Positions 14,498-17,894 of a DNA stretch of 64,000 nt are shown here, piece after piece. This DNA comes from Thermocoleostomius sinensis A174 (GTDB lineage: Bacteria; Cyanobacteriota; Cyanobacteriia; Elainellales; Elainellaceae). Below the pieces are notes generated by a model. It was not told where the DNA came from. It worked only from the letters and a program-made list of their open reading frames with translations, and did no database searches. The DNA lies in contig NZ_CP113797.1 of the NCBI RefSeq assembly GCF_026802175.1, forward strand, positions 2,023,026 through 2,087,025. Reading direction: 5' to 3'. How positions within the stretch are numbered: the first letter of the stretch is position 1; each line of letters starts with the position of its first letter. Both the position numbers and the translations under genes were made by a program.

Positions 14498-15712
14498 TTA
14501 TGACGCTTGATAGCGCTCGACCAGCGTGGCAATGCCCAACCCGCCAGCAATCCCCAATGTGGCTAAACCCAAACGAGGCGCTCTGGGCAGGATTGGCAGG
14601 ATTGGCAGGGCAGAAAAGTGCACGATTTCGGTGAACAATCGCGTCATCAAAATTGCACCCGATGCGCCATAGGGATGCCCCAAGGCAATGGCCCCACCGC
14701 CCACATTCACTTTGTCTTCAGGAATTTCTAACGCATCTAAACTAGCTAACACCTGGGCGGCGAAGGCTTCATTAAACTCTACACGATCGATTTGCTCGAG
14801 TGTGATCTGGTGGGACTGACGCTTTAGTAGAGCTTGAATGGCTGCAACCGGAGCAATACCCAATACCGTTGGATCGACGCCCACCGCGGCCGCATCGACC
14901 ACTCGTAACCCTTGAGTTAACTCCAGTTTTTCAAACATTGACTGAGACACCATCAATACTGCCGCTGCTCCATCGTTAATTGGACAGGTGTTTCCTACAG
15001 TAACCGTACCTTGTTCTACAAACGCCGATCGCAGTTTTGCTAGCCGTTCTAGGGTCAAGTTCGCACGGGGACATTCATCGCGGTCTACGACCGTGGTACT
15101 GGAAATGGCAACAGGCACAATCTCTAATTGAAAGCGTCCAGACTGGATTGAAGCAATGGCCTTGAGGTGGCTATTCAAGGCAAATTGATCCTGGCGATCG
15201 CGGCTAATACCAAATTTCTGGGCTACGGTCTCGGCGGACACTCCCATCTCTGGATCGCCCAATCCATCCGGTGCAAATCGGGCCCGATGCGCAAAACGCG
15301 GCAGTTCATACAGCGATTGAGGTTTTTCAATACGCCAAGGGGCTGTACTGACGCTTTCCATCCCGCCCGCAATGATCACGTCTGCGGCTCCAGCTTGAAT
15401 CAACCGTGCTGCTAGATTAATGGCTTCTAGCCCAGAACCACACTGGCGATCGATTGTGACTCCGGGAATTTGCACCGGAAACCCAGCAGTCAGGAGAGCC
15501 AAGCGAGCGGGGTTTCCCCCTGGGCCAATGGCATTGCCCAAAATCACTTCATCTACTTGATCGGGAATTAGCCCCACATCTGCTAACACTGCCTGCAAAA
15601 CAGGAGCCATCAAAGCGTCTACGGGCAAAGTACGCAGCGATCGCCCCACCCGCCCGATCGGAGTACGACGAGCCGCTACAATCAATGCTTCTTGTCTCTG
15701 CTGATGTATCAC
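14498..15712 (-). CDS. Thiolase-family protein lacking the second catalytic cysteine
   Basis: 404 residues, thiolase fold. The nucleophile loop TIDRQCGSGLEAI (Cys91), NEAFAAQV and GGGAIALGHPYGASGA with its catalytic histidine are intact. The C-terminal motif, normally TLCIGGG or similar with the proton-transferring cysteine, reads TLGIAGG here, so that cysteine is glycine. It is the last gene of a leftward set bioY, acyl-CoA ligase, thiolase, the same trio as Bacillus yhfU-yhfT-yhfS, which is placed in the biotin regulon by comparative genomics. A role in making or degrading an acyl-CoA linked to biotin precursor supply is therefore more likely than polyhydroxybutyrate synthesis; no phaB or phaC is near. 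Confidence 0.85.
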   Translation of the reverse strand: MIHQQRQEALIVAARRTPIGRVGRSLRTLPVDALMAPVLQAVLADVGLIPDQVDEVILGNAIGPGGNPARLALLTAGFPVQIPGVTIDRQCGSGLEAINLAARLIQAGAADVIIAGGMESVSTAPWRIEKPQSLYELPRFAHRARFAPDGLGDPEMGVSAETVAQKFGISRDRQDQFALNSHLKAIASIQSGRFQLEIVPVAISSTTVVDRDECPRANLTLERLAKLRSAFVEQGTVTVGNTCPINDGAAAVLMVSQSMFEKLELTQGLRVVDAAAVGVDPTVLGIAPVAAIQALLKRQSHQITLEQIDRVEFNEAFAAQVLASLDALEIPEDKVNVGGGAIALGHPYGASGAILMTRLFTEIVHFSALPILPILPRAPRLGLATLGIAGGLGIATLVERYQAS

Positions 15713-15764: not shown

Positions 15765-17348
15765 CTAATCTTGCACCTCAAGCGAGCCTGTTATACGAGC
15801 CAGAGTTTCTTTTAGGGCAACTCGGTTGATTTTGCCACTTGTAGTTAGTGGAAATTGATCGACGGTGATCACGTGGCGTGGGAATTTGCTTGCTGGTAGT
15901 TGAGGCTGAAGCCGCTGTTGTAACTGTAATCGTGTCAAGGGACGATCGCTCCAATCAGGGGCCCAGCGAATGGCGGCGCAAAGCACTTGTCCTCGATCGG
16001 CATCGGCTAGCCCCCAGACCACGGCTTCCTCGACTTCGGGTAAACCTTGCAGCGCTTTCTCAACTTCCAAAGGATAAACATTCAGTCCACTTGTGATCAC
16101 CATATCTTGTTCTCGTCCCACCAGATACAGATAGCCGTCAGCATCACGCCAACCCCAATCCCCAACCGTTGCCCAGCCGTTGACAATGCGAAACCCGCTG
16201 CTTGTTTCAGCCTGCCAATATCCAGAACAGAGCATAGCGCTTTTGACACTAATCCATCCCATTTCTCCGATCGCCGCTTCTCCAGAGCCATCTGTGCGCT
16301 GAATTGACAATGCCACACCATGGAATGGTCGTCCTACAGACTGGGGTGGAACCGGGTTATGGGAAGACGCCACCGTAATAAAGCTAAGTTCGCTCGCACC
16401 TAAGTATTCCAGAATTTCAGCCTTGGGAAAGACGATCGGTAGCTCGCTGCGTAGGGTCGTGTCTAGTTTGGAGCCACCGGCAATTACTCGCTGAAGTGAT
16501 GGATAGATTTTGGTTTGAGTCTGGGCTGCTTTGGTGATCGTCTTCAACAGCGTTGGCACTGCCACTAACGTTGTGATGGCATCAGTATGCAAACCATCCA
16601 ATACCGTTTTAGCGCTGAATTTAGGCAACACCGTCACCGTTGCCCCTGCATTTAGCCCTTCAAGCACCGCATACAGAGACAAGCTATGTATCAGCGAGCC
16701 AGGTATCAGCAGGCGATCGTTCTTTGTGATTCCAAATTCAACTCGGCTAGCAGCAAAACTCTGCACCCACGATCGGTGACTGCGCACGACGCCTTTAGGT
16801 GTGCCAGTTGTACCAGAGGTAAAGCCAATGTAAAAAGGGTCTGTATCTGAACAAACCGATGAGATTGGGGAGGCGGTAAAAAGCTCTTGCCTCCATGAAT
16901 GTCGCCAATCCACATAGTTGCCCCGCTGGACTGCGCCTTGCCCAGCGGGAACCATGATTGTTTCAGCACAAGGCAGGGAATCAATGGCAGTTGCTAGCTT
17001 TGCTTCTAGGGTTGCATCCACAAATAGCCAATCGAGCGACTCTTGGCATACCTGCTGTAGGATGTCAATTGACCATTGCGGATCAAACACCAACGCGACC
17101 CCACCCGCCAAGGCCACGCCCAAAAAAATTTCTAGAAACTCTAAGCGGTTCGTCAACCATAGACCAACCAGCGGCGAGGGATGGCAACAATGATGTCTGA
17201 TAGCACCAGCGACCTGCTGAGCGGCTGTCAGCAATGCTCCATAACTGCATGTTTGCGTCGATCGGGATGATCGAATACAAATAGCGGCATGATGTGGGCG
17301 CTGTTGTGCTTGTTGAATAAATTCATCTGCAATCAACGTCATTCGCAT
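15765..17348 (-). CDS. AMP-forming acyl-CoA synthetase (YhfT-like)
   Basis: 527 residues of the ANL superfamily. The phosphate-binding loop FTSGTTGTPKG lies at ~176-186, EYLGASE is the A4/A5 region, WATVGDWGWRDADGYLYLVGREQDM holds the conserved Asp and hinge (read in two adjacent pieces), and SGKINR near the C-terminus carries the adenylation lysine. It should activate a carboxylic acid as acyl-AMP and load it onto CoA. It lies 12 bp after bioY and 52 bp before the thiolase gene, so one transcript is likely. Context suggests a medium-chain or dicarboxylic substrate tied to biotin metabolism; the sequence alone does not reveal the substrate. The start may be ATG 17348 or 17342. Confidence 0.87.
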   Translation of the reverse strand: MRMTLIADEFIQQAQQRPHHAAICIRSSRSTQTCSYGALLTAAQQVAGAIRHHCCHPSPLVGLWLTNRLEFLEIFLGVALAGGVALVFDPQWSIDILQQVCQESLDWLFVDATLEAKLATAIDSLPCAETIMVPAGQGAVQRGNYVDWRHSWRQELFTASPISSVCSDTDPFYIGFTSGTTGTPKGVVRSHRSWVQSFAASRVEFGITKNDRLLIPGSLIHSLSLYAVLEGLNAGATVTVLPKFSAKTVLDGLHTDAITTLVAVPTLLKTITKAAQTQTKIYPSLQRVIAGGSKLDTTLRSELPIVFPKAEILEYLGASELSFITVASSHNPVPPQSVGRPFHGVALSIQRTDGSGEAAIGEMGWISVKSAMLCSGYWQAETSSGFRIVNGWATVGDWGWRDADGYLYLVGREQDMVITSGLNVYPLEVEKALQGLPEVEEAVVWGLADADRGQVLCAAIRWAPDWSDRPLTRLQLQQRLQPQLPASKFPRHVITVDQFPLTTSGKINRVALKETLARITGSLEVQD

Positions 17349-17360
17349 GTACGTGACAGC

Positions 17361-17894
17361 CTAGCGCGCTGAAATTAGAGGATACGATCGCTTTACTATC
17401 ACCGCCACTAGGGACGCAATCCCAACTTTGATCAAGTCACCTGGCAAAAACGCTACGGCAGACAGGGCGGTTTCACGACCTGCTAATACAGCTAACCACG
17501 GTAATCCGATCGCATACACCACGGCAATGCCGCCAATGGCATTTGCCAACATGGCATTACTCAGGCTCAACTGCCGCCAGAACCGCTCTGTGAGCCAGCC
17601 GATTGTAAAAGCTCCCAAGGGAAATCCAAGCAAAAACCCGCCTCTGGGGCCCAAAAACACCGCCAAGCCACTGCCTCCGGAAGCTTGGGGAATGCCAATG
17701 GCAATTAACAGCAAAAACAGCATCATGGCCAACCCACCTCGTTTGGCTCCCAATAGCGACCCGGACAGCATGACACCCAGCGATCGGGCTGTAATCGGAA
17801 CTGGAATGAATGATAGGGGAATTGCTGGAATTAACCCGAAAACAATGGTCAGAGCCGCAAAAAGAGCAATATAAACTAGATCACGGTTGTTCAT
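17361..17894 (-). CDS. bioY: BioY-type biotin transporter S component
   Basis: 177 residues, six hydrophobic segments. Typical BioY features: LYIALFAALTIVFGLIPAIP at the N-terminus, the loop VPITARSLGVMLSGSLLGAKRGGLAM, and GGSGLAVFLGPRGGFLLGFP. BioY captures biotin at the membrane, either alone or with the shared ECF module (EcfT, EcfA), none of which is nearby. It is first in the operon with the acyl-CoA ligase and thiolase. An imperfect palindrome TTAACGCTAA lies just before the start (17901-17910); no convincing BirA operator was recognised upstream. Confidence 0.92.
   Translation of the reverse strand: MNNRDLVYIALFAALTIVFGLIPAIPLSFIPVPITARSLGVMLSGSLLGAKRGGLAMMLFLLLIAIGIPQASGGSGLAVFLGPRGGFLLGFPLGAFTIGWLTERFWRQLSLSNAMLANAIGGIAVVYAIGLPWLAVLAGRETALSAVAFLPGDLIKVGIASLVAVIVKRSYPLISAR

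Follow-up and report, generated by a model that had tools for sequence, protein, structure and literature searches.

The YhfS-like proteins, judged from their sequences, are an old and widespread branch of the thiolase family without the residue that usually abstracts the proton, and these biotin-regulated, Cys-less thiolase genes probably catalyse a reaction other than the annotated one. The member described here is encoded in the window, a stretch of 64,000 nucleotides from Thermocoleostomius sinensis A174, whose genome is 5.81 Mb in one contig. It is established that yhfT and yhfS belong to the BirA (biotin) regulon. No literature on the function of YhfS was found. With the base lost throughout the family, the gene restricted to bioB-less genomes among cyanobacteria, and a reductase and a thioesterase linked to it in some species, what is named a “putative acetyl-CoA acetyltransferase” becomes a testable question of biotin supply. 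It can be said that the present annotation of the Cys-less thiolase is misleading in many genomes.

The thiolase is the last gene of a minus-strand series, as the initial annotation had claimed. The series begins with bioY (17361..17894), encoding the substrate-binding component of a biotin transporter of 177 aa (PF02632, E-value 3.3e-34), which is followed after a gap of 12 bp by an AMP-forming, YhfT-like acyl-CoA ligase of 527 aa (15765..17348) and, after a further 52 bp, by the YhfS-like protein of 404 aa with a GTG start (14498..15712), recognised from the list of open reading frames, the Pfam and NCBIfam matches and the alignment. The Pfam E-values are 3e-34 (BioY, rounded), 1e-55 (AMP-binding), 9e-74 (Thiolase_N, PF00108) and 2e-30 (Thiolase_C, PF02803). 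Of the specific NCBIfam models, PRK06690 fits the thiolase best and PRK07638, at a score below its cut-off, the ligase, which bears out the proposal that this trio corresponds to yhfUTS of Bacillus. The closest relatives in which the gene occurs belong to filamentous cyanobacteria of the Leptolyngbya/Oculatellaceae type. The neighbouring PadR and CCB1 genes have the opposite orientation and were rejected as parts of the system, no evidence for such a role having been found. A second thiolase of the genome is an ordinary one with a CVGGG motif, located elsewhere next to fatty-acid oxidation genes. The genome also has a second BioY, directly by lspA (L156:4228-4824); most cyanobacteria have one.

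By fold and homology the protein is a thiolase, with the Pfam match, a predicted model of pLDDT 92.5 and a Z of about 59 to solved thiolases. The motifs of canonical thiolases are all present (CxSG around the nucleophile, NEAF and GHP), and only the second catalytic cysteine, that of the CxG motif, is absent. Codon check and alignment agree that the nucleophile Cys91 (TGT, minus strand, 15440..15442; invariant in 78/78 family members), Asn314 of NEAFA (AAT, 14771..14773) and His346 of GHP (CAT, 14675..14677) are intact, as had been noted. The place of the second cysteine is taken by Gly387 (GGG, 14552..14554), the Gly of TLGIAGG aligning with the Cys of TL-C-IGGG in solved thiolases (the chains 4n44 and 4wyr read “tlcigggqg” here). 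The initial annotation had described this loss for the single gene, and the trait turned out to be wider, namely that of a whole family. Another cysteine, Cys243 (14984..14986), lies in a GN-x-C-P-x-ND loop where most thiolases have serine. In thiolases Cys378 is the base that deprotonates the second substrate (PMC3406046), and it is a natural inference from this role that ordinary Claisen chemistry is impaired in the Gly387 enzyme. Sequencing error is excluded since GGG is two base changes away from TGT or TGC and Gly is common to all close orthologues; a pseudogene was likewise rejected, the frame being intact and the Gly shared by all orthologues. The variable loop before the CxG strand (14573..14617, minus strand) contains the repeat stretch ALPILPILPRAP, in which a short DNA repeat of ggcaggatt units encodes ALPILPILP; among aligned relatives the repeat occurs in this genome only, and the loop differs in length and sequence between orthologues.

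The absence of the CxG cysteine is a property of the family. In an alignment of 78 members, spanning cyanobacteria, alpha- and gamma-proteobacteria, actinobacteria and Bacillus YhfS, position 387 is Gly in 68, Ala in nine and Ser in one; none has Cys, against 44/44 of the ordinary thiolases aligned. The cysteine being missing from 78/78 and from 0/44 respectively, its loss is not a matter of chance. Four orthologues from related genomes also have Gly, and a check of every bioY-linked thiolase found showed the cysteine replaced by Gly or Ala. A pattern scan of the genomes of 84,980 species revealed relatives in Rhodospirillaceae, Azospirillum, Rhizobium, Bartonella, Serratia, Erwinia, Pantoea and many actinobacteria, although loci were counted with patterns and profiles derived from the Cys-less family, so that distant members with the cysteine could exist. 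All relatives with the signature GHP-[YFW]-GASG are without the cysteine; a ligase precedes almost all of them, and BioY lies a short way upstream in about two fifths. The ordinary thiolases which the scan also caught carry CIGGG or CMAGG and are not accompanied by BioY. The search with NF005212 (YhfS) in 299 genomes of the order gave best 30 loci with ends of the AAIGSGGG type, without the cysteine wherever the end was read and with a ligase or BioY adjoining. Members scoring above the PRK06690 cut-off lack it as well. In a tree built with the trait columns excluded, one branch (SH-aLRT 100) separates all the Cys-less proteins from the others and one change is sufficient; this, together with the family-wide loss, rules out both error and decay. 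The Cys-less branch has two halves, YhfS and the window group. Cys91, Asn314 and His346 do not vary within the family, which also has invariant or nearly invariant residues of its own that differ in ordinary thiolases (78 vs 44 aligned): Asn60, Gly66, Asp88, Gln90, Arg143-Ala144-x-Phe146-x-Pro148, Pro154, Cys243, an aromatic residue at 348 and Arg358. The Arg143 stretch probably lies in the covering loop, which in thiolases shapes the substrate pocket (PMC7337054, PMC3406046). The window protein has the clade position, the family residues and the linkage with ligase and BioY, and belongs to the broad YhfS-like family.

With respect to known systems, the closest is Bacillus YhfS (PRK06690, NF005212) with YhfT and YhfU/BioY, sharing the trio, the loss of the CxG cysteine and most family-specific residues. 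YhfS is nevertheless the sister of the window group, across the deepest split of the family, and the window protein, longer than YhfS (404 vs about 363 aa), scores 354.5 bits against the PRK06690 cut-off of 498 and stays outside the narrow equivalog. The thiolases of C. acetobutylicum (ThlA), Z. ramigera and E. coli share the fold (Z about 59), 40-44% identity, the Cys nucleophile, NEAFA and GHP, but the window family lacks their CxG cysteine and has its own Cys243, Asp88-Gln90, Arg143 and Arg358. Mycobacterium smegmatis TLP1 also combines a thiolase fold with an altered CxG motif (NGG); however, in TLP1 the nucleophile and every other catalytic residue are gone and a further domain is present (PMC3406046), whereas the window protein has lost the second Cys only. 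The Cys-less family would be a natural counterpart of the C378G thiolase, and useful for the study of thiolase and ketosynthase divergence.

The initial annotation had suggested a role in the handling of a biotin precursor, and the biotin genes of the window host and of many others do not agree with this. Among 390 genomes of the cyanobacterial class bioB is found in 357 and missing in 33, and the Cys-less thiolase occurs in 7/33 of the bioB-less and 0/357 of the bioB-bearing genomes (Fisher p = 1.7e-8, uncorrected for phylogeny and overstating independence, since the seven represent six genera in three families). All seven, the window genome included, are also without canonical bioF, for which bioB-bearing relatives score 410-476 bits. 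The window host is therefore predicted, from its missing genes, to be an auxotroph unable to synthesise biotin through the known pathway. The remaining 26/33 bioB-less genomes do not have the thiolase either, so auxotrophy does not depend on the gene. Genomes of Rhizobium, Bartonella, Azospirillum and Rhodospirillaceae that bear the trio have neither bioB nor bioD; bioB is present in trio-bearing enterics, actinobacteria and some Bacillus. As a pimeloyl precursor would be of no use in the bioB-less hosts, import or salvage fits better there. The bioD gene is kept in 7/7 of the gene-bearing cyanobacteria despite the missing bioB and canonical bioF (G000:C1:2721738-2722253; L155:3568-4380), a point which counts against the salvage explanation given below.

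The explanation which we tentatively prefer, while holding it at less than even confidence, is that the thiolase has turned into a decarboxylating enzyme resembling KAS III which extends the acyl-CoA made by the ligase, probably in the salvage of biotin vitamers whose side chain has been shortened. KAS III enzymes need no proton-abstracting base, because the loss of CO2 itself yields the carbanion. The catalytic set of KAS III is Cys-His-Asn, and BioZ, a KAS III which joins glutaryl-CoA and malonyl-ACP, is a precedent in biotin metabolism (PMC7645780). When the family was aligned with a FabH profile, Cys91 was matched with the Cys of FabH and Asn314 with its His, while the residue opposite Gly387 was Ala in E. 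coli FabH and Gly in cyanobacterial FabH. This alignment is a weak one, with a probability of 36-52% and an E of 1e-4, and it needed the profile, E. coli FabH alone giving no usable alignment with the family profile. No FabH model is among the best 25 of the 47 NCBIfam matches of the window protein. The likeness to KAS III and BioZ lies in the Cys and Asn/His set and in Gly/Ala at the place of the CxG cysteine, while the window protein differs from them in having the thiolase loop domain, a swapped order of Asn and His and very weak sequence similarity, and despite the FabH-like proposal its overall fold is closest to ordinary thiolases.

Around the observed loss, conservation, gene linkage and distribution of bioB, we infer the direction of the reaction, the malonyl donor and the substrate. 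The ligase would convert an acid to its acyl-CoA and the acyl group would move onto Cys91, where a decarboxylative condensation with a malonyl thioester would lengthen it, in the manner of KAS III (FabH) and with no base. Ketoreduction, dehydration and enoyl reduction would be left to enzymes of fatty acid synthesis or, in some species, to the linked enoyl-thioester-reductase-like protein, and the product, longer by two carbons, would be freed from its thioester by the linked hotdog thioesterase. The least certain step is the identity of the substrate: linkage with BioY and occurrence in biotin auxotrophs make a shortened biotin vitamer the likeliest one, perhaps imported bisnor- or tetranorbiotin, rebuilt to biotin. 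That BioY-YhfT-YhfS carries out the whole of such side-chain regrowth, with shortened biotin products imported, activated, lengthened by two carbons and returned as biotin to auxotrophs, is rather doubtful, and no literature on bisnorbiotin as a bacterial source of biotin or on its salvage was found. Biotin, acting through BirA, represses the homologous operon of S. aureus (PMC6391492, PMC7235819), which fits salvage and argues against breakdown.

The ligase precedes the thiolase in nearly all members and BioY is linked in many, across several phyla. In 24 of 49 loci (alpha-proteobacteria, gamma-proteobacteria and actinobacteria; 17 of the 24 are Rhizobium) an enoyl-thioester-reductase-like protein (MDR) and a hotdog thioesterase of the YbgC/FadM type are linked as well; they accompany ligase and thiolase in Rhizobium, Serratia, Erwinia, Pantoea, two Streptomyces and Dactylosporangium, whereas those cyanobacterial and Bacillus loci that were read have neither. 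The top solved relative of the reductase is 3gms, a putative quinone reductase, and its best functionally named ones are mitochondrial 2-enoyl thioester reductases (1zsy, human, 3e-30). Such linkage suggests chain building and release rather than beta-oxidation. Genes for an ATPase and a permease of the BioM/BioN type are located upstream of the trio in several loci.

It is possible, though on balance unlikely, that the second cysteine was relocated, with Cys243 serving as the acid/base in an ordinary thiolase, condensing or thiolytic, acting on a biotin-related acyl chain. Relocation has a precedent in the SCP2-type thiolases, where the second Cys is supplied by another loop. Cys243 is the sole family-wide cysteine apart from the nucleophile, kept in 77/78 members against Ser in 39/44 ordinary thiolases; however, one YhfS has Ser243 (L131) and five ordinary Bacillales thiolases, with a separate origin on the tree, have Cys243 together with the CxG cysteine. 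Cys243 is therefore not specific to the loss, and a relocation strictly tied to it is not supported. Comparably unlikely is a pure transfer or capture of acyl groups, in which the ligase would trap imported biotin or another acid as a CoA thioester and the thiolase-like protein would shift the acyl from one thiol to another, or onto a different acceptor, with no C-C chemistry. It agrees with the nucleophile and oxyanion residues being retained and the base missing, with the linkage to BioY, with the thioesterase of some clusters and with acylation of the nucleophilic Cys being the shared first step (PMC3406046), but it leaves the linked enoyl-thioester-reductase-like protein unexplained and is unnecessary where energising subunits of the BioM/BioN type stand beside the trio. 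Synthesis of a precursor by a BioZ-like condensation towards a pimeloyl thioester, for instance from glutaryl-CoA and two carbons, is improbable, though it may apply in prototrophs: the module adjoins extra bioD, bioB and bioF in Streptomyces albireticuli and bioB in Dactylosporangium, yet bioB and canonical bioF are missing from seven cyanobacteria, bioB and bioD from Rhizobium, Bartonella and further trio-bearing genomes, and in the auxotrophs, including the window organism, this role is untenable. A beta-oxidative breakdown of the biotin side chain, in which the enzyme would be the thiolase, is very improbable, for although a CoA ligase and a thiolase are a beta-oxidation pair and the database annotation agrees, the S. 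aureus operon is repressed by biotin, the gene occurs in organisms unable to make biotin, the acid/base residue is gone and a reductase is linked.

A few loci deserve separate mention. In S. albireticuli (L176, 2-16 kb) BioMNY, ligase, Cys-less thiolase, reductase and thioesterase stand beside the extra bio genes and also adjoin a ketosynthase-like gene; this is possibly a cluster for a biotin-like natural product. On the large plasmid p42f of R. etli CFN42 the annotated reductase, thioesterase, ligase and thiolase (L154, 10694-14829) lie <15 kb from panCB, and relatives of the thiolase are found in 123 plasmid records, mostly of Rhizobium. In Aneurinibacillus and Brevibacillus two ordinary thiolase genes adjoin in tandem (G394:C69:34480-36895, i.e. 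L114, as well as L115 and L116), one of them with CIGVGQG.
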